DNA of 64,000 nt from Rhodocytophaga aerolata. GTDB taxonomy: Bacteria; Bacteroidota; Bacteroidia; Cytophagales; 172606-1. Shown here one piece after another: positions 44,739-54,302 of the stretch. Each line of letters starts with the position of its first letter. The first letter of the stretch is position 1. The notes under the pieces were generated by a model, which saw nothing but the letters and a program-made list of their open reading frames with translations, did no database searches and was not told the origin of the DNA. The position numbers and the translations under genes were made by a program. Location of the stretch: the NCBI RefSeq assembly GCF_030503435.1, contig NZ_JAUKPO010000012.1, positions 62,001 through 126,000 on the forward strand, read 5' to 3'.

Positions 44739-46055
44739 TCATTCAAATATCTTTTCATTTTCCAGTATTAGCAAGCCTAAGCGTTCTTTGGAAACGCCTT
44801 CAGCAAGTTTATAGGTGAATACTGGCTTGTTGCCTTCTATAGCAGATTCCATATACCGGAATAAAACATTTGGGTAAAGCTTTATTTCTGCTGCCAGCTC
44901 AGTGATATGAGAAGAAACAATAAATACACTATTCTTCCATTGCTGCAACCCATCTATTACCAGCTTAGAGCAATCATAGGCATCTTTTACATTGGTTCCC
45001 CGGAATAACTCATCAAAAATAAAAAATACAGAAGTATTGTCTTTTAGCTTATCTACTGCCTCCTTTACCCGCATAACTTCACTATAAAAGTAACTGTACC
45101 CCGCTGACAAATTATCTGAAGGGCTAATGCTACTAAATATGCCTGTAAACACACTTAACTTTGCACTACCCGCTGGTATGCCCATCCCAATATGAGCCAG
45201 ATACATAGCCGTTCCAACAGCCTTCAGTAATGTGGTTTTGCCTGCCGTATTTGGGCCTGTTAAAAACAAAAAATTTGTTTGTGAATCAAAGCGAAGATCA
45301 TTGCTGACGGGTGAGTTAATATACAGATGGTATAGATTATCAAAAACTATATAGGGAGTTTCGGTAGCAACAAATTCCGGAAAAACCAGTTGGTAGTTCC
45401 GGATACTTTGAGCCATGGATAAGAATGCATCCATTTCTGCCAATAAATCCAACAGCACAATAATTTGATCTTTTAACTGTACTCTAAAGAGGCGGTCGTA
45501 CTCTATCACTTCTACAAAATTCATTGTGTTGTGCGCATAATTAGTTAGGGCCCGGCTTATACGTTCTTGCCTCAACACTTCCTGTACTTTCTCTACCCAC
45601 TGACCTAGCAAATGTGGCAGTGTTTCTTCTTTCAATGAGTCTGTATATTTCTGGATAGTATGCAGAAAAGACAATAGCCTAAAGGTTCCCCCTCTGATAT
45701 AGGCATATTCACTTTGGTATAGGAGCTGGTAACGGGCAATCTGAAGCAAGGTATCCAGCTTCGTATTAGAGAAAATGGGAGATATATTTGAATAAAAATA
45801 GTTTTCCAGGTTAAAAATCTCCTCCTCATGCACCTTAAAAGTACATTTTTCGATATCGGCTACTAAAAACCGTAAGCAGCTCTGTACCGCATATATTTCT
45901 TCCTGGCTGGTACAGTAATGGGATAGTTTTTCCCGTAGCTTTATCTTTCCTCTTCTGGTTTTGGTAAAATCAAGCTTAGTTAACAAAGAAGTGTTACCTG
46001 ATCCGGATTCAAAAATTTCCAGTTCTTTTAAGGTCTGGTTATCGGTTTTTTGCAT
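44739..46055 (-). CDS. MutS-family ATPase of short, non-MutS1/MutS2 type
   Basis: A 438-residue protein. Residues about 1-250 are the helical lever/clamp region of MutS proteins; the N-terminal mismatch-binding domain is absent. The ATPase has Walker A TGPNTAGKTT (Lys273), the SPSDNLSAGYSYFYSEVMRV signature, Walker B FFIFDELFRGTN (Asp348-Glu349) and FIVSSHITELA as the switch His. There is no C-terminal Smr nuclease, so it is not MutS2, and it is too short for MutS1. Homologues of this size in Bacteroidota are simply called DNA mismatch repair ATPases and have no assigned role. It lies downstream of the AAA+/VWA pair but behind a terminator. The true mutS gene is not in the window. Confidence 0.87.
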   Translation of the reverse strand: MQKTDNQTLKELEIFESGSGNTSLLTKLDFTKTRRGKIKLREKLSHYCTSQEEIYAVQSCLRFLVADIEKCTFKVHEEEIFNLENYFYSNISPIFSNTKLDTLLQIARYQLLYQSEYAYIRGGTFRLLSFLHTIQKYTDSLKEETLPHLLGQWVEKVQEVLRQERISRALTNYAHNTMNFVEVIEYDRLFRVQLKDQIIVLLDLLAEMDAFLSMAQSIRNYQLVFPEFVATETPYIVFDNLYHLYINSPVSNDLRFDSQTNFLFLTGPNTAGKTTLLKAVGTAMYLAHIGMGIPAGSAKLSVFTGIFSSISPSDNLSAGYSYFYSEVMRVKEAVDKLKDNTSVFFIFDELFRGTNVKDAYDCSKLVIDGLQQWKNSVFIVSSHITELAAEIKLYPNVLFRYMESAIEGNKPVFTYKLAEGVSKERLGLLILENEKIFE

Positions 46056-46161: not shown

Positions 46162-47724
46162 TTACCTATATCTCTTGCCTCTGCCTTTGTCGTCTGTATC
46201 ATCTTCATCGTCGTCGTCGCCAAAGGAGCCCGGCCCGGAAAACATACTGCTGAGCAGATCTTTAAACTGTAATCCTGCAGTCAACATATTTTTGCTGATC
46301 ATGGAGTATTCAGCCAGGCCATGTAGAGCAAATTCCATCAGAAACAACTTGGTAGCTTCATCCTGACGGGCATGATACGCATCTATTAGTTCTCTCAAGC
46401 CTTTTACATTGTTCAGCGCAGCTTTATAATCTTTGTTAGACAGGTCGTTTAGCAAATCTATGGTATTACCCTCCCCAAACCAGTCGGTTATGCGGCGATA
46501 AGGATTGTCTGTTTTATTTTTTTGCTGTTTTTTTAGTTTTTCCGGGTCCGGAAAATACAGCAGGAATTGCGTACGTAATGCTTTGCCAATCAGATTCTGG
46601 GCTACAATCACGGGGCCTTCTTGTTCTCCTTCATATACCAGTTCTACCTTCCCGGTAATAGAAGGAATTATACCCCATAAATCACTTACGCGAACATAGG
46701 TATCTTTCTCACTGTTTAATAATGTTCTGCGTTCAGCCGCACTTAATAAATTTTCATAGGCCGAAATGGTCAAACGAGCCGATACCCCACTTTTGGCATC
46801 TACATATTCACTTTTACGTGCTTCAAAAGCAATCTGCTCAATCAGGTCAGCCACGAGTTCGTTGATCTGTACTTTATCTACTTGCTCCTCTTTTACAATG
46901 GCTTCTTGTCTGGTAATTTTCTTACCTATTTCAATGCTCTTCGGATAATGGGTTACAATCTGGCTATCTATCCGGTCTTTTAATGGTGTAACGATACTTC
47001 CGCGGTTGGTGTAATCTTCCGGATTAGCTGTAAACACAAATTGTATGTCTAAGGGCAAACGTATTTTAAAGCCACGGATCTGGATATCGCCTTCCTGAAG
47101 AATATTAAATAAAGATACCTGTATTCTTGCCTGCAAATCTGGAAGTTCATTTATCACAAATATTCCCCGGTGCGAACGTGGAATCAACCCGAAATGAATT
47201 ACGCGTTCATCCGAATAAGGTAATTTCAGCGTAGCCGCCTTTATTGGGTCAGCATCGCCAATCAGGTCAGCTACCGATACATCTGGAGTAGCTAGTTTTT
47301 CGGTATATCTTTCTGACCGGTGCATCCATTCAATAGGCGTTTTATCCCCGTGTTCGGCAATCAGGTCTATCGCATATCTGGAAAGTGGCTGCAAGGGATC
47401 GTCATTTAGCTCAGAACCTTTTACTACCGGAATATACTCATCCAGCAGATTAATCATCATACGGGCCAGGCGGGTTTTAGCTTGTCCACGTAACCCAAGC
47501 AGGTTAATGTGGTGCATAGATAATATGGCCCGTTCCATATCCGGAATTACGGTTTCTTCATAGCCCCAGATACCTGGAAAAACTTCTTCTTTGTTCCGTA
47601 ACCTGGCGATAAGATTATTCCGCAGTTCCTGCCGGATAGGGGTTGGCTGGTAACCCGTAGCCCTTAGTTCTCCTAAAGTCTTTACTTTTACTAATTGTTC
47701 TGTTGAGAGATCCTTATATTTCAT
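46162..47724 (-). CDS. MoxR/Mg-chelatase-I-like AAA+ ATPase partner of a VWA protein
   Basis: A 520-residue AAA+ protein. The P-loop is GLRGQAKT (Gly77 to Thr84) with Ala82 where Gly is usual. Walker B is GIFVINELPDL with Asn192 before the catalytic Glu193. Sensor 1 is VFTANPEDY and the arginine-finger region is TPLKDRI. The family is close to the ChlI/MoxR branch, which pairs with VWA proteins to remodel other proteins or insert metals. The C-terminal region (about 380-500) is helical, and the last residues are an Asp-rich stretch then a basic end (KGRGKRYR). It lies 133 nt downstream of the VWA gene on the same strand, so the two are a unit. No chlorophyll or cobalamin genes are nearby, so a chelatase role is unlikely. 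Confidence 0.87.
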   Translation of the reverse strand: MKYKDLSTEQLVKVKTLGELRATGYQPTPIRQELRNNLIARLRNKEEVFPGIWGYEETVIPDMERAILSMHHINLLGLRGQAKTRLARMMINLLDEYIPVVKGSELNDDPLQPLSRYAIDLIAEHGDKTPIEWMHRSERYTEKLATPDVSVADLIGDADPIKAATLKLPYSDERVIHFGLIPRSHRGIFVINELPDLQARIQVSLFNILQEGDIQIRGFKIRLPLDIQFVFTANPEDYTNRGSIVTPLKDRIDSQIVTHYPKSIEIGKKITRQEAIVKEEQVDKVQINELVADLIEQIAFEARKSEYVDAKSGVSARLTISAYENLLSAAERRTLLNSEKDTYVRVSDLWGIIPSITGKVELVYEGEQEGPVIVAQNLIGKALRTQFLLYFPDPEKLKKQQKNKTDNPYRRITDWFGEGNTIDLLNDLSNKDYKAALNNVKGLRELIDAYHARQDEATKLFLMEFALHGLAEYSMISKNMLTAGLQFKDLLSSMFSGPGSFGDDDDEDDTDDKGRGKRYR

Positions 47725-47857
47725 GTTCCGATTTATCGTTGGTTTGATTTGAATGCATTGATATTAACTAGTAAAAAATGGGATGCAATCTAGCTTAGCT
47801 CCTTCTGCACAATGACACAAAGCAGCTTATAGCAAATAGCATAATACATCTTATCCT

Positions 47858-48952
47858 TTACACATTTTTCCGGCGGTTGCGCTGGTAGTCTTCAAAAATA
47901 TAATTGCCTAATCCTTTGAGGCTGCTGTAATAGGCTCTGCCCTGGTTTACTTCGGTGAATTCGCGAACAAACTGCTGTAAATAAGGGTCGGTAGCAATCA
48001 TAAATGTAGTGATGGGTATTTTTATACGGCGGCATTGGGCAGCCAGGTTCAAGGTACGGTTAAGTATTTTTCTATCTAAACCAAAGCTATTTTTATAATA
48101 CCGGATACCCTCTTTTAAGCAAGTAGGCTTTCCATCGGTAATCATAAAAATCTGCTTATTCTTATTTTTCTGCCTCCGCAAGATGTCCATAGCCAGTTCT
48201 AAACCTGCTACCGTGTTGGTATGGTAGGGGCCTACTTCCAGGTAAGGCAGATCTTTGATTTGTACTTTCCAGGCATCGTTTCCGAAAACAATAATGTCCA
48301 GGGTATCTTTTGGATATTTCGTGGTAATGAGTTCGGCTAAGGCCATCGCTACCTTTTTGGCAGGCGTAATCCGGTCTTCTCCGTAAAGAATCATGGAATG
48401 GGAAATATCTATCATTAGTACAGTAGACGTCTGGGACTTAAACTCCGTCTCCATTATTTCCAGGTCGTCTTCCATGAGCATGAACTCATTAATCCCATGG
48501 TTGATCTGCGCATTGCGGATAGATTCCGTCATGGATATTTGCTCTAAAGTATCCCCAAACTGGAAGTTTCGTTTATCGGAACTTAGTTCATCACCAGTGC
48601 CGGAGAAGGGAGTGTGATGGTTACCGCTCTGCGTTTTCTTCAGTTTGCCGAAGATTTCTTCCAGGGCACTCTTCCGGATAGATTGCTCACTTTTAGCGGT
48701 CATCACAATTTTACCGCCGGGTGTTTCTTCCGTAATGTATCCTTTATCTTTCAGCTCCTGAATAAAATCGCCCATGCCGTACTCATCGGTAGTCATGCCG
48801 TATTGTTTGTCTAGTTCATTCATCCACTGCAAGGTTTCACTTACGTCGCCGGAAGTGACTACCATTAGTTGCATGAATACTTTCAGTAAATTATCAAAGG
48901 TGCTTTTTCCCTCTTCCGAAGGAGAAAATTGGGAGAATCTGTAACCAAGCAT
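47858..48952 (-). CDS. VWA domain protein, partner of the AAA+ ATPase
   Basis: A 364-residue protein with no signal peptide. Residues about 175-340 are a von Willebrand A domain with an intact metal-ion-dependent adhesion site: Asp182-Ile-Ser184-His-Ser186 (DISHS), Thr in HTNTVAGLEL and the Asp in MITDGKPT. Residues 1-170 are helical with a charged region and no recognised fold. VWA proteins encoded beside MoxR/ChlI-type ATPases form complexes that bind and remodel a target. The target here is unknown. The gene is first in the pair, 133 nt ahead of the ATPase gene, and no clean -7 element is seen upstream. Confidence 0.87.
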   Translation of the reverse strand: MLGYRFSQFSPSEEGKSTFDNLLKVFMQLMVVTSGDVSETLQWMNELDKQYGMTTDEYGMGDFIQELKDKGYITEETPGGKIVMTAKSEQSIRKSALEEIFGKLKKTQSGNHHTPFSGTGDELSSDKRNFQFGDTLEQISMTESIRNAQINHGINEFMLMEDDLEIMETEFKSQTSTVLMIDISHSMILYGEDRITPAKKVAMALAELITTKYPKDTLDIIVFGNDAWKVQIKDLPYLEVGPYHTNTVAGLELAMDILRRQKNKNKQIFMITDGKPTCLKEGIRYYKNSFGLDRKILNRTLNLAAQCRRIKIPITTFMIATDPYLQQFVREFTEVNQGRAYYSSLKGLGNYIFEDYQRNRRKNV

Positions 48953-49166: not shown

Positions 49167-50201
49167 TCAGGAAGATGCAAGATAGTGCACTGATTTTCTG
49201 TTGCGGAGTATAGTCATAGCTTTCAAAAGTGGTGTAAACGAATGACCTTTTTTATGGTTCTGCATGCTTATGTTAAACAAAATGTGCCAATGCCGAAAAA
49301 GATGTTTATAGGCATGTGAAATACGCATCTGCGGATCGTAAATATGTGCAGGCTCTGAGTTAGCTCCATTCAGTTCAAGTATTTTTATATTCCGTCCTGC
49401 ATACAGATCTTCCAGACCAGGTACTCTGATATCATATCTGCCAAAGTAAAACCCATCTATAGTTCTACTGATGTTGTCGAAAACCTGTACAAGCCCAGGT
49501 GTAATCAGATGATTGGCATTCAGAAAGGTAGTGCCCCGCGCATGATTGCCAATGCTTACTAATTCAAGTACTTCTCCTGGCTTCAACACTTTCGTGAGTT
49601 CCCCTTTATACAGCTTCAGCAACATAGGCAAATGGTACTTTGTCCGGGTAAACCGGTTAAACAATTCCTGTAAGGTAGACTTTCCATCGCCAGTGACAGA
49701 CAAAAATTCTTTTTGTACGATAGAGGTTATATAACCCCGAGCCTGTCCAGGCATCCGATGATACATTATTCCAAATTCAAGCGGATAATCGATATATTCC
49801 TGTATCAATAATTTTTGGCGGTTCTGGCTCAGGTATTCCATAAACGCTTGACTGTGATTGATCTTCTCTACTTTCCACCCCCGTTCGCCTACATCTGGTT
49901 TAATAATTAACGGGAAAGACAGGCCCTGACTTTTGATTTGCTTAAGAAGTTCTTCCGGATCACTGACGGCTGAGTTTATCAATACTGTCTTCGGAATAAG
50001 TTCGCTAGAAAACTGCTTGATTACGTTGTATTTGGAATACCCCCCAAAACCTCCTAACTCCATTCTGGGATTGGCCGCACTAAAAAAAACAAAAGACCGG
50101 GCACGGATACTCAACCAGATCCAATAAAAGTAAATAGGTGTATAAAACAACCAGAATGGCCAGAATTCCCATTTCGTTAATTTTATCCAGGAGTTACTCA
50201 T
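49167..50201 (-). CDS. ATP-grasp ligase with N-terminal membrane helix
   Basis: A 344-residue protein. It begins with a hydrophobic aromatic helix (about 12-32, WPFWLFYTPIYFYWIWLSI) and then shows ATP-grasp features: FPLIIKPDVGERGWKVEKI (nucleotide-binding strand and loop), LLIQEYIDYPLEFGIMYHR, FGRYDIRV and KILELNGANSEPAHIYDP, which holds the metal-binding Glu and Asn of D-Ala-D-Ala ligase-like enzymes. It should join a carboxylate to an amine through an acyl-phosphate. The substrate is unknown. It overlaps the NRDE gene by 4 nt (ATGA), so the two are tightly coupled. The family occurs in Bacteroidota as a hypothetical protein. A transporter role for the helix is unlikely; it is more probably a membrane tether. 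Confidence 0.82.
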   Translation of the reverse strand: MSNSWIKLTKWEFWPFWLFYTPIYFYWIWLSIRARSFVFFSAANPRMELGGFGGYSKYNVIKQFSSELIPKTVLINSAVSDPEELLKQIKSQGLSFPLIIKPDVGERGWKVEKINHSQAFMEYLSQNRQKLLIQEYIDYPLEFGIMYHRMPGQARGYITSIVQKEFLSVTGDGKSTLQELFNRFTRTKYHLPMLLKLYKGELTKVLKPGEVLELVSIGNHARGTTFLNANHLITPGLVQVFDNISRTIDGFYFGRYDIRVPGLEDLYAGRNIKILELNGANSEPAHIYDPQMRISHAYKHLFRHWHILFNISMQNHKKGHSFTPLLKAMTILRNRKSVHYLASS

Positions 50202-50938
50202 ATTATTTGTGGGTACGCTAGCCGGCGGAAGGTTTGTTGCGCCAGTGTGTTAGTAGCTAAATCTTCATAATACATCCTGAGTAAAGATATTTCAACTTCT
50301 ACACTAGTAATGCTCACGGTAGAAACGAGTCCTGGACGATTCATCCGGATATTATAGGATGTATCAGTTCCCTTGCCACCACTTTGATGAAAGCCTCTAA
50401 TGGATTCTACGTTAAAAGCCTTTTCCTGTAGCCACTGTGAAAACCACAAAGTCCGTTCTTCTATCATTTGACGGTCGTACAAAGTTACCGATGACCATAT
50501 ATATGGCTGTTGAGAATTTGTTTTACTGATATGTTTTTCTTTCCCATCCCAGCGGAGTTCGGTTAGTATTACTGTGCTGGCATGTTGCACCATAATCATG
50601 GTAAAGGGTTCTATTCCCTGGAAATTATAAGCATGGATAAATTCATCTACAGATGCATAATCAAAAACGGATACTACTACCAGCCCGCGGCTTAGCCGGT
50701 ATGGAGGTTCTGGTACATGATTTTCGAAAGCCCCATTCAGTAAACACACCGTTAATGTGCTGCTGCTAGCTATCCAGGTACCACCTTTGTCGCCGTCTTG
50801 TGGAAACAAAACCTTGGCATGGAAAGGGGTGTGTTTATATACAGGAAAAAGTGCAGGCTTACGGGCTATCCGTTCGTCGCGGCTGGACGTAAGAATAAAC
50901 GTAGTATCGCTTGTTGGCAGATAGGTAACTGTACACAT
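50198..50938 (-). CDS. NRDE family protein (TANGO2-like)
   Basis: A 246-residue protein with the TANGO2 start MCTVTYLP and, at residues 19-22, Ser-Arg-Asp-Glu in the position of the family's NRDE motif. The second residue, Cys2, would be the N-terminal residue after Met removal, as in Ntn hydrolases, to which the family is distantly related. GGTWIASS and LLNGAFENH are further family landmarks. In eukaryotes TANGO2 has been linked to haem and lipid handling; no bacterial function is settled. It is the first gene of a two-gene unit with the ATP-grasp ligase and has its own -7 element. Confidence 0.85.
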   Translation of the reverse strand: MCTVTYLPTSDTTFILTSSRDERIARKPALFPVYKHTPFHAKVLFPQDGDKGGTWIASSSTLTVCLLNGAFENHVPEPPYRLSRGLVVVSVFDYASVDEFIHAYNFQGIEPFTMIMVQHASTVILTELRWDGKEKHISKTNSQQPYIWSSVTLYDRQMIEERTLWFSQWLQEKAFNVESIRGFHQSGGKGTDTSYNIRMNRPGLVSTVSITSVEVEISLLRMYYEDLATNTLAQQTFRRLAYPQII

Positions 50939-50985: not shown

Positions 50986-51018
50986 ATTCCACCAGGCTTA
51001 CAAGCAACCTGGTGGAAT
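50986..51018 (-). terminator. Intrinsic terminator after rodA
   Basis: 11-bp arms (50986-50996 and 51008-51018, ATTCCACCAGG/CCTGGTGGAAT) with an 11-nt loop. On the minus strand an eight-T run follows. It starts 27 nt past the rodA stop. Confidence 0.92.
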
Positions 51019-51044: not shown

Positions 51045-52322
51045 TTAATACCTGGCTGTCATCTGATTGCGGTGTGCATCCAATTTCAAGAAAATAAACA
51101 GCAAGATAGTAAATGACCACAAGGATGAACCTCCGTAGCTGAAGAATGGCAAAGGAATACCAATTACGGGCAGCAACCCAATAGCCATGCCTATATTTAC
51201 AAAGAAGTGAATAAATATAATAGAGGCTACTGAATAACCATAAATACGTGCAAAACGGTCTTTTTGCCTTTCAGCTAAATAGATAATCCGGCAAAACAAA
51301 CCTATAAATAGGCTGATAATAATTAAACTTCCAATCCAGCCGTGTTCTTCACCAATTGTACAGAATATAAAGTCAGTACTTTGCTCAGGTACATAGTTCA
51401 GTTTGGTTTGTGTACCTTCCAGAAACCCTTTACCTGCCAGACCGCCAGAACCAATTGCAATTTTTGATTGAATTACCTGCCAGCCTACGCCATGTAAGTC
51501 GACCATTGGATCGAAAAGCACCATAATTCTGGCCCGCTGGTGAGGAAGCATTACATCATTTACTATTTTATCTACTCCTATCGCTACACCAGCTATCAGC
51601 AAGCATCCTGCTAACACTAAGGCTATATTCTTAAATGTTTTTTTAGGAGTAAGCCCGATCACAATAAGGCCAACGGCTGCTATGCCTAGCACCAGATATA
51701 ACTGAGGAACAATTAATGCCAGTACGAATACAAAAATGGCAAATGCACCCAAAATCAACACCCAGGGCGTAAGGCCTTCGCGGTACAACACCAATATAAA
51801 AGCAGAAAACACCATGGTTGATCCTGTATCGTTCTGGATCAGAATCAGTAAAGCCGGCACGCCTAAAAGAATGGCACAAGTAATTTGCGTACGCAACTGA
51901 TCGAAGCGTACTCCTACCCGGCCCATGTATTTTGCCAGGGCAAGTGCTGTAGCAAACTTAGCAAATTCAGAAGGCTGAATACGTATGCTGCCTATCTCAA
52001 ACCAGGATTTAGCGCCATTTACGTCCCGGGCAAGCGCCAGTACGCCTATTAATGCTATAAGCACTACGCCATAAATTATATAAGCAAAGAACTCGTAAAA
52101 TTTATAATCTAAGAGCAAAATCACTAGAATAATAAAAACGGCACACCCAATCCATAACAACTGCCGGCCTGAGTTTAGTGACATGCTGAAAATATTCTGC
52201 TTGGCCTCCGGATCATACACCGCAGCAAATATATTGAGCCATCCAGCTATTACGCAGATGGCAAACAGTAGCACCGTCAGCCAATCTATCGTTCTGGAAA
52301 CACTATCTCTGTCGTCGTACAT
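51045..52322 (-). CDS. rodA: Rod shape-determining peptidoglycan glycosyltransferase RodA
   Basis: RodA is the SEDS polymerase that builds glycan strands during cell elongation, together with PBP2. The 425-residue protein has about ten helices. It has the SEDS landmarks GAKSWFEIGSIRIQPSEFAKFATALALAKYM (residues about 106-136), LIQNDTGSTMVFSAFIL with the catalytic Asp, QSKIAIGSGGLAGKGFLEGTQTKLNYVPEQSTDFIFCTIGEEHGWIGS and, near the end, PLPFFSYGGSSLWSF. The ATG at 52322 lies 21 nt after the mrdA stop, so the two are co-transcribed. A strong terminator follows. Confidence 0.97.
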   Translation of the reverse strand: MYDDRDSVSRTIDWLTVLLFAICVIAGWLNIFAAVYDPEAKQNIFSMSLNSGRQLLWIGCAVFIILVILLLDYKFYEFFAYIIYGVVLIALIGVLALARDVNGAKSWFEIGSIRIQPSEFAKFATALALAKYMGRVGVRFDQLRTQITCAILLGVPALLILIQNDTGSTMVFSAFILVLYREGLTPWVLILGAFAIFVFVLALIVPQLYLVLGIAAVGLIVIGLTPKKTFKNIALVLAGCLLIAGVAIGVDKIVNDVMLPHQRARIMVLFDPMVDLHGVGWQVIQSKIAIGSGGLAGKGFLEGTQTKLNYVPEQSTDFIFCTIGEEHGWIGSLIIISLFIGLFCRIIYLAERQKDRFARIYGYSVASIIFIHFFVNIGMAIGLLPVIGIPLPFFSYGGSSLWSFTILLFIFLKLDAHRNQMTARY

Positions 52323-52343
52323 CTCCTGTATAAAATTTAATAA

Positions 52344-54302
52344 TTATCGGTTGCTTTTTATTTCTCTTACCAGTACTGGTTCTTCTGCTTGCTTAACCAC
52401 CGTATCTTTCTTCACCACTTTCATTTCCTTTTTCACAATCGTTGTATCTTTTTTAGAGACTACTATGGAAGTCGGTTTAGGCAGTTCAGGCATAAAGCTT
52501 TTCTCAATTAATGATTTCTCTAAGGGCTTCCGCTTCTTGTTAACTTCACCTTTGATATATTTTTCCATAATCAGTGAGGCAATTGGAGCAGCTATTACCC
52601 CACCAAACCCTGCATTTTCTACATACACAGCCACTGCTATTTTAGGATTGTCTTTTGGAGCAAAACAAATGAATACGGAGTGATCTTTGCCTTTTTTATT
52701 TTCGGAGGTACCCGTTTTTCCACATACGGTTATACTGTCGATAATCGCTAACCTGGCCGTACCTGCACGTACCACATCGGCCATAGCATCTACTACCACC
52801 TGGAATTTATCACTTTCTACCCCCACATAGTTCCGGGTAGTATATTTGGAATCTATCTTGCCTTCTTTACCAACGCCTTTGATTAAATGAGGGGTATAAT
52901 AATAGCCGCGGTTAGCAATAATGGCTGCTAAGTTAGCCATTTGCAGCGGTACTACCCCTAACTCACCTTCGCCAATAGCCATGGAATACCAGTTGGAGAA
53001 TTTCCAGCTGCCTTTTCCATATACCCGGTTGAAGAAACTCGTATCTGGTACAAAGCCCCGTTTTTCATTAGGAAGATCAATACCTAACGTACGGCCAAAT
53101 CCAAACTTACTAATGGCATCACGCCAGCGCATTAAGCCTCTTTCTGAATCTTTAAAAGTATTTCCTGTCTCTTTATGATAGATATACTGCCGGAAGGCCT
53201 GGTAGAAATAAACATTGCAGGAAAATTGAATAGCATTGTGCAACCCATTATGCGCCCCTGAATGGTGATGGCACCCCATAGGGCCAACATCAGGCAAATG
53301 TGCCGTAGTAGTAAGTGAACCTTGCTGCAAACCTACCAATGACTGCACCAGCTTAAAGATAGAACCCGGCCGGTATACTGCTTGTATCGGACGGTTGTAT
53401 AGTGGAATTAAAGGATCTTTCTGCAATGGACCGAAATTTATCGGAAATTCACGCCCGGTAAGCATATTCGGATCATAGGTAGGCGAAGATACCATGGTAA
53501 GAATTTCACCTGTAGATGGTTCTATAGCTACTACACTTCCCACCTTGTTCATCATTAAAGTTTCTGCATACTGTTGCAGGTCAATATCTATACTGGAGGT
53601 AAGTGCCTCCCCGGAAACAGCTGAGGTATCCATCTGGCCACTTTTGAAGGAGCCTTTTTCTACGCCTTTTACATCTACCAATACATACCGGACACCACGT
53701 TTCCCACGTAATTCCTCCTCATAGGAAGATTCAATTCCGCTAATACCCACATAGTCACCTTGCTTATAATAGGTCTGTCCTGGAGCTTCCAGTTTCTTCT
53801 TGCTGATTTCTCCGATATAGCCTAATGTATTAGCCATTACCTTTTTAGGATACGACCGGATTGTACGGGCAGTAGCATAAAACCCAGGATAATCTACTAG
53901 GGCACCCTGGATTCTGGCAAAATCCACATTAGATACTTGCTTGAGAAAAGGATAAGGTTTTACCCGTGAATATGCTTTAGACGCTCTGGCTACCCGGAAT
54001 AATGAATCGAATCCGGATCTGGTAAGACCCATTACGCGGCAAAAAGCCAACGTATCTTCAATCTTAACCTTTTTCGGAATCATCATGATATCGTATACCG
54101 GAGCATTGATTACAATAAGCTTACCCTTGCGGTCGTAAATCTGCCCACGTGTGGGGTATTGCGTAACCTTTAATATAGCATTGTTCTCCGCTGCTGAACG
54201 GTAGCTTGTGTCTACTACTTGCAGAAAAAACAACCGGATCAGGAACACCACTCCGACGGCTATAAAAATACCCATTACGACATATTGTCTACCTTCTCTC
54301 AT
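52344..54302 (-). CDS. mrdA: Penicillin-binding protein 2
   Basis: PBP2 is the transpeptidase of the elongation machinery. The 652-residue protein has an N-terminal membrane helix (about 8-27), a pedestal region, and a transpeptidase domain. Its catalytic residues are Ser314-x-x-Lys317 (PGSIFK), Ser361-Cys-Asn363 (SxN), and Lys529-Thr-Gly531 (KTGTSEN). The C-terminal 80 residues are Lys-rich (VSKKDTTIVKKEMKVVKKDTVV) and probably disordered; this tail is unusual in length for a PBP2. The gene lies directly upstream of rodA. Its usual upstream neighbour mreD is here separated by a TonB receptor gene on the other strand. Confidence 0.97.
   Translation of the reverse strand: MREGRQYVVMGIFIAVGVVFLIRLFFLQVVDTSYRSAAENNAILKVTQYPTRGQIYDRKGKLIVINAPVYDIMMIPKKVKIEDTLAFCRVMGLTRSGFDSLFRVARASKAYSRVKPYPFLKQVSNVDFARIQGALVDYPGFYATARTIRSYPKKVMANTLGYIGEISKKKLEAPGQTYYKQGDYVGISGIESSYEEELRGKRGVRYVLVDVKGVEKGSFKSGQMDTSAVSGEALTSSIDIDLQQYAETLMMNKVGSVVAIEPSTGEILTMVSSPTYDPNMLTGREFPINFGPLQKDPLIPLYNRPIQAVYRPGSIFKLVQSLVGLQQGSLTTTAHLPDVGPMGCHHHSGAHNGLHNAIQFSCNVYFYQAFRQYIYHKETGNTFKDSERGLMRWRDAISKFGFGRTLGIDLPNEKRGFVPDTSFFNRVYGKGSWKFSNWYSMAIGEGELGVVPLQMANLAAIIANRGYYYTPHLIKGVGKEGKIDSKYTTRNYVGVESDKFQVVVDAMADVVRAGTARLAIIDSITVCGKTGTSENKKGKDHSVFICFAPKDNPKIAVAVYVENAGFGGVIAAPIASLIMEKYIKGEVNKKRKPLEKSLIEKSFMPELPKPTSIVVSKKDTTIVKKEMKVVKKDTVVKQAEEPVLVREIKSNR

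Follow-up and report, generated by a model that had tools for sequence, protein, structure and literature searches.

The gene pair examined here raises the question of what a bacterial protein of the NRDE/TANGO2 family does together with an ATP-grasp ligase whose gene overlaps its own. Loss of TANGO2 causes severe disease in humans, and the biochemical reaction of the protein is disputed. The pair is located in a window of 64,000 nucleotides from Rhodocytophaga aerolata, a member of the Bacteroidota, and the coordinates of its features are listed in Table 1.

Organization of the gene pair

Both open reading frames are located on the minus strand, and the 4-nt ATGA overlap described in the initial annotation was confirmed. 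Genes for RodA and a PBP2-like protein (51045-54302, minus strand) are placed upstream of the pair. The strong terminator between rodA and the pair makes co-transcription of the two genes likely and read-through from rodA unlikely, and the two genes probably form a transcription unit of their own, as judged from these signals. Of the earlier suggestion of a shared promoter, only this likely co-transcription is retained; promoter-like matches near the pair were no more frequent than in shuffled sequence. Elsewhere in the window (46162-48952, minus strand), genes for a ChlI/MoxR-like AAA ATPase and, next, a von Willebrand A domain protein form a pair that recalls chelatase-like chaperones, and a short MutS-like protein of 438 amino acids with domains III and V only (44739-46055, minus strand) partly matches the model of a MutS-related aminomutase reactivase ATPase.

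Table 1. Coordinates of the gene pair and associated features in the window.
Feature	Position	Strand	Description
NRDE/TANGO2-like gene	50198..50938	-	246 aa, MCTVTYLP...SSRDER; first gene of the pair; predicted Cys-Ntn fold
ATP-grasp amide ligase gene	49167..50201	-	344 aa; second gene; aromatic N-terminal membrane segment
ATGA stop/start overlap, NRDE/ATP-grasp	50198..50201	-	Sequence
Intrinsic terminator between rodA and the pair	50986..51018	-	13-pair stem followed by a T-run; MFE z -5.4 versus shuffles
Cys2 codon of NRDE, candidate N-terminal nucleophile	50933..50935	-	Invariant in 62/62 homologs, four Vibrionaceae included
Ser150 codon of NRDE	50489..50491	-	Aligns with TANGO2 Asn157 (proposed oxyanion residue); Ser in 62/62
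ATP-grasp metal-binding motif E276-L-N278	49368..49376	-	E276 and N278 invariant in 163/163
Aromatic-rich membrane-associating segment, ligase residues 13-42	50076..50165	-	Hydropathy; conserved E12, P22 and N44 around the segment

The NRDE protein

Proteins with a match to the Pfam TANGO2 profile (PF05742) fall into two sets, the canonical NRDEs with scores of 200+ bits and a divergent set with scores of about 30-60 bits. The window protein scores 35.7 bits (cut-off 22.6), and the NRDE genes located beside the ligase belong to the divergent subfamily. Its AlphaFold model (pLDDT 90.8) has TANGO2 as the best structural match (9bwa; Z 23.0 over 230 residues, rmsd 3.2), and further fold neighbors with Z of about 16-18 include NAAA, acid ceramidase, bile salt hydrolase and isopenicillin N acyltransferase. 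The model thus predicts an Ntn fold with a cysteine immediately after Met1 (Z 16-23 to TANGO2, NAAA and bile salt hydrolase). Since TANGO2 has a Cys-Ntn fold, this bears out the distant kinship to the Ntn hydrolases that had been proposed. Sequence searches of the PDB yielded no match, whether started from the single proteins or from the NRDE profile.

The crystal structure of TANGO2 suggests a Cys-Ntn hydrolase with an active site composed of Cys2, Asp27, Asn157 and Lys166 (PMC13044924). In the 62 NRDE homologs, which were gathered by profile so that invariance is somewhat inflated, the cysteine pointed out at residue 2 is invariant, as are R20, D21, D48, N68, S83-R84-G85, S150, H184, T207 and S209. 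Within the NRDE motif, E22 is present in 61 of the 62 proteins, while the Asn position is occupied by Asn in 42 and by Ser in 20; the window protein retains three of the four letters and has a Ser at the Asn position. The correspondence of Ser150 to Asn157 comes from a profile-profile alignment with canonical bacterial NRDEs rather than from coordinates. The position aligned with TANGO2 Lys166 is variable, and the nearby R162 is Arg in 58 and Lys in 4 of the 62 sequences, also by alignment only. Compared with TANGO2, the active site thus appears to be partly kept and partly changed, and the Ser at the Asn157 position together with the variable Lys166-aligned position makes hydrolase activity uncertain.

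The ATP-grasp ligase

The ATP-grasp protein shows a partial match to the Pfam RimK domain (PF08443; 24.9 bits, cut-off 21, residues 80-138). Its AlphaFold model (pLDDT 94.6) is most similar to cyanophycin synthetase in the PDB (Z 16.5), and further fold matches include LysX and D-Ala-D-Ala ligases. K101, E142, R255, D257, E276 and N278 are invariant in all 163 ligases, a set likewise gathered by profile with the same slight inflation. The predicted ATP-grasp fold and the catalytic residues, including the Glu and Asn (Glu276 and Asn278) whose conservation was in question, agree with the amide/peptide ligase class given in the initial annotation. Homologs in Salinivibrio are annotated as D-alanine--D-alanine ligase, an annotation that was rejected for the window protein, which has no match to the corresponding Pfam domain (PF07478) at E 0.1.

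The N-terminal segment of the ligase contains 13 Phe, Trp or Tyr residues between residues 14 and 42, with an octanol-scale sum of -21 kcal/mol over 19 residues and a Kyte-Doolittle value of about 0.8-1.0, and in the model the N-terminal helix is broken near Pro22. Of the membrane helix that had been proposed, the membrane-loving aromatic segment is retained, but a spanning helix is called into question by the low Kyte-Doolittle value and the break. In view of the model, a membrane-interface anchor seems as likely as a spanning helix, and because the aromatic, octanol-favorable segment is broken near Pro22, "membrane-associated" is a safer label than "transmembrane".

Co-occurrence and evolution of the pair

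The ligase is present in 29 of 59 related genomes and PF05742 proteins in 30. In a set of 395 Bacteroidota genomes, 72 contain the ligase, 40 the divergent NRDE and 34 both proteins (Fisher odds ratio 47, p 5e-23, a value that overstates independence as the genomes are related). In 24 of these genomes the two genes are encoded on the same strand and within 200 nt of each other, and in 28 they are within 6 kb, so that the pairing extends far beyond chance. Neither of the two outcomes that had been named as arguments against the pairing, a neighborhood unique to this genome or an unconserved Cys2, was observed. In 80 loci from named organisms, 29 contain an NRDE gene, which in 25 of the 29 is directly upstream of the ligase gene and overlaps or nearly touches it, the arrangement also seen in the window. 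The two proteins are fused into one open reading frame in two genomes (596 and 589 aa), and a single LysE-ATP-grasp fusion was identified. The divergence of NRDE correlates with that of the ligase (r 0.78, Mantel 0/2000), a result that shared ancestry alone could give. These results show that the functional coupling of NRDE and ligase is real and conserved. A tblastn search of viral contigs yielded no homolog.

A parsimony reconstruction on the ligase tree, inferred with FastTree from uneven sampling, suggests that the NRDE neighbor was gained or lost 16 times, and at least 11 of these events are forced by well-supported branches. The closest relatives of the window ligase lack an NRDE neighbor. 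Another genome of the same genus (G001) contains one ligase copy directly after rodA without NRDE and a second copy, accompanied by NRDE, in a full cassette. By these comparisons, the association is labile and has been repeatedly formed or lost.

In locus L188 (4533-8175), two ligase genes flank one NRDE gene and are followed by LysE, which suggests a duplication around NRDE. In L183 (6175-7885) and L186 (6330-7663), the divergent NRDE is located beside a protein with a TseH-like Pfam match, which in L183 carries a DUF6695 domain, and the ligase was not found in these genomes.

The wider cassette

The ligase genes have recurrent neighbors that encode Crp, YHS, DM13, DoxX, YceI, DinB, LysE and alpha/beta hydrolase proteins, as well as a 245-aa protein without a Pfam match. 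Within 6 kb of 43 short-form ligase genes, DinB is present in 29 loci, NRDE in 28, LysE (PF01810) in 23, YHS in 22 and DoxX in 16. The recurring core of the cassette consists of DinB, NRDE, ATP-grasp and either LysE or VTT/DedA as the transporter-like protein, and YHS and DoxX often accompany it. Histidine residues of DinB that resemble a metal site are kept in 116 of 116 proteins. Thus, while the initial view of the pair as a unit captured a real pairing, it missed the larger cassette of DinB, the transporter-like protein, YHS and DoxX, in which NRDE is optional.

A second form, found in 30 loci from one branch of the Bacteroidota, has a VTT/DedA domain fused to the ligase. An OlsB-like gene is adjacent in all 30 of these loci and an OlsA-like gene in 29, and DinB is linked in 21. 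The OlsB- and OlsA-like examples that were scanned score 140 and 121 bits against the NCBIfam models, below the equivalog cut-offs, so that the head-group amino acid is not fixed by these names. NRDE is absent from all 30 genomes. An alpha/beta hydrolase domain precedes the VTT-ligase fusion in 8 of the 30 as judged by profile; of three proteins scanned with Pfam, two have this domain. It may, as a guess, take the place of NRDE in this form. In the Bacteroidota, NRDE and OlsBA were never observed in the same locus; they were found together only in Vibrionaceae (as OlsF). Some ligase genes are located in contexts unrelated to the cassette. In four loci (L250, L251, L256 and L261), the ligase gene follows a conserved gene for 272-279 amino acids, etherase-like by eye, and a gene for a small membrane protein of 78-91 amino acids.

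Outside the Bacteroidota, megaplasmids of Salinivibrio contain genes for VTT, ligase, DinB and NRDE in a row, and Vibrio sp. THAF191d and Photobacterium sp. GJ3 contain VTT, ATP-grasp, NRDE, YHS, DoxX and an OlsF-like gene in a row. The OlsF-like genes score 428 and 407 bits (cut-off 620), and DinB is present in the Vibrio locus but was not recovered by the gene calls in Photobacterium. In Variovorax, the ligase gene adjoins an OlsB-like gene, in Azospirillum VTT is fused to the ligase, and in Paracoccus the ligase is found with an alpha/beta hydrolase and VTT. That the same kinds of genes recur across phyla is the strongest argument that they form one functional module. A correlation between the presence of OlsF and ATP-grasp across the phylum was dropped as evidence, as it is confounded by kinship. 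On a conjugative plasmid of Komagataeibacter, a divergent ligase gene is located beside genes for a methyltransferase and an iron-containing redox enzyme (L196, 5079-8011).

In the window, no DinB, LysE or VTT gene flanks the pair. The sole match to DinB in the genome is an unlinked homolog (40% identity, E 1e-32), and single-protein queries for LysE and DoxX, run with no positive control, were empty. No match to the OlsB/GlsB N-acyltransferase domain (PF13444) was found in this genome or in most of the family, which makes an ornithine or glycine lipid produced by that route an unlikely substrate here, and any lipid substrate would have to come from another route. One alternative route is provided by a GH3-like enzyme that makes N-acyl ornithine in a planctomycete (PMC12493201). 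GH3-like enzymes are present in the R. aerolata genome and near-universal in the order, and with 56 of 59 relatives containing them they were set aside as non-discriminating evidence for the substrate supply.

Proposed function

The fusions to VTT or LysE and the linkage to OlsB/OlsA- or OlsF-like genes in three unrelated lineages speak for a lipid substrate rather than a small soluble product. The initial annotation had left both open, as a small amide-linked product or a membrane-associated substrate, and it is the latter that gains from these data. We infer, with chances that we regard as about even, that the pair represents, in two genes, a lipid-tailoring cassette that recurs in bacteria, in which the reactions, their direction and the part played by each protein may be as follows. 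ATP-grasp enzymes form an acyl-phosphate that is then attacked by an amine, from which the lipid-carboxylate chemistry of the ligase is deduced. At the inner membrane, the ATP-grasp protein would use ATP to activate a free carboxylate on a lipid of the acylated amino-acid type and join it through an amide bond to an amine (for instance an amino acid). Removal of Met1 would expose Cys2 of NRDE, the TANGO2-fold Cys-Ntn enzyme, which may then cleave or transfer the acyl-amide end of the same lipid; the N-acyl amide hydrolases and acyltransferases among its fold neighbors were counted in favor of such tailoring. In the larger cassettes, DinB is a predicted metal enzyme, and LysE or VTT/DedA may move the lipid product across the membrane.

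In fold, the ligase is closest to peptide ligases (cyanophycin synthetase and LysX are examples), and it could be argued that its product is a soluble dipeptide or amino-acid conjugate, exported by LysE and trimmed or recycled by NRDE acting as a hydrolase, the nearby lipid genes being incidental. The frequency of LysE (PF01810) within 6 kb of the short-form genes (23 of 43), its single fusion and the lack of OlsB/GlsB in the R. aerolata genome are consistent with this. We nevertheless consider it unlikely, given that a VTT/DedA membrane protein replaces LysE in other lineages, that the Ols-like genes are adjacent in three unrelated lineages, and that the conserved aromatic membrane segment is of no obvious use with a soluble substrate. 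That NRDE is instead a carrier of acyl-CoA or acyl-lipid, which hands an acyl substrate to the membrane ligase, also seems improbable. Purified TANGO2 binds acyl-CoA and loses this ability upon mutation of the NRDE motif (PMC11867700), and the replacement of Asn157 by Ser150 in the subfamily is in line with a carrier, but the invariance of Cys2, R20, D21 and N68 in 62 of 62 proteins is not obviously needed for pure binding.

An action of the pair on peptidoglycan precursors or another cell-wall compound is suggested by rodA and PBP2, which are located upstream of the pair in the window and of the NRDE-less ligase copy in G001, by the D-Ala-D-Ala ligases among the fold matches and by the etherase-like gene that precedes the ligase in four loci. 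However, the link to rodA is seen in this genus only, a terminator separates rodA from the pair, and the window protein has no D-Ala-D-Ala ligase Pfam domain at E 0.1, which leaves a cell-wall role with a very small probability.

Beyond the tailoring of a lipid, it is conceivable, as a more tentative reading, that the cassette represents an undescribed aminolipid-extension pathway, in which the ligase would be one of the missing enzymes that convert single-amino-acid lipids to di- or tripeptide lipids and NRDE would perform the ancestral job of TANGO2, an N-acyl amide reaction on membrane lipids. To our knowledge, no ligase has been assigned to the assembly of lipids with several amino acids, among them flavolipin and the Gly-Ser-Orn lipids, and the ATP-grasp family is a candidate for one such step. 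We do not equate the ligase with the flavolipin Ser ligase of Bacteroides or with the Ser-joining enzyme of the Gly-Ser lipids. The existence of a bacterial TANGO2 subfamily encoded in one operon with an amide ligase, and in some cases fused to it, provides a genetically tractable partner and a substrate class for testing.

Comparison with known systems

As initially thought, no named pathway with this pair was found in the literature searched, which contains no description of an NRDE-ATP-grasp cassette and no paper that combines "NRDE family protein" with ATP-grasp; for ornithine lipid together with ATP-grasp, only a review with ATP-grasp confined to its reference list was retrieved. Orn-taurine lipids exist, and the Gly-Ser, Gly-Ser-Orn and Orn-taurine lipids resemble the proposed product in that they need an amide-forming step. 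Gly-Ser and Gly-Ser-Orn lipids occur in the Bacteroidota (PMC8433624), and for the Gly-Ser lipids the Ser-joining gene is marked as unknown (PMC12746155) and the pathway is likewise called unknown (PMC10191378). Genes similar to those of the OlsBA, OlsF and GlsBA lipid synthesis systems adjoin the cassette in three lineages, whereas the window has no such neighbor and PF13444 is absent from its genome.

Similar to cyanophycin synthetase and the RimK/LysX-type ligases, the window ligase has the ATP-grasp fold and catalytic residues, but it differs from them by its aromatic N-terminal membrane segment and by relatives that are fused to VTT or LysE. NRDE shares the N-terminal Met-Cys, the Arg-Asp motif and the fold over 230 residues with the TANGO2/NRDE family (PF05742; human TANGO2 8sv7 and 9bwa), and its Asn68 probably corresponds to TANGO2 Asn75, while it belongs to a separate divergent subfamily with a Ser at the Asn157 position and an ATP-grasp ligase as partner. 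With the Cys-Ntn N-acyl amide hydrolases and acyltransferases it has in common the fold (Z about 16-18), the N-terminal Cys and a conserved Arg and Asp, but the sequence identity is about 7-13% and the Asn oxyanion residue of these enzymes is apparently a Ser in the NRDE subfamily.
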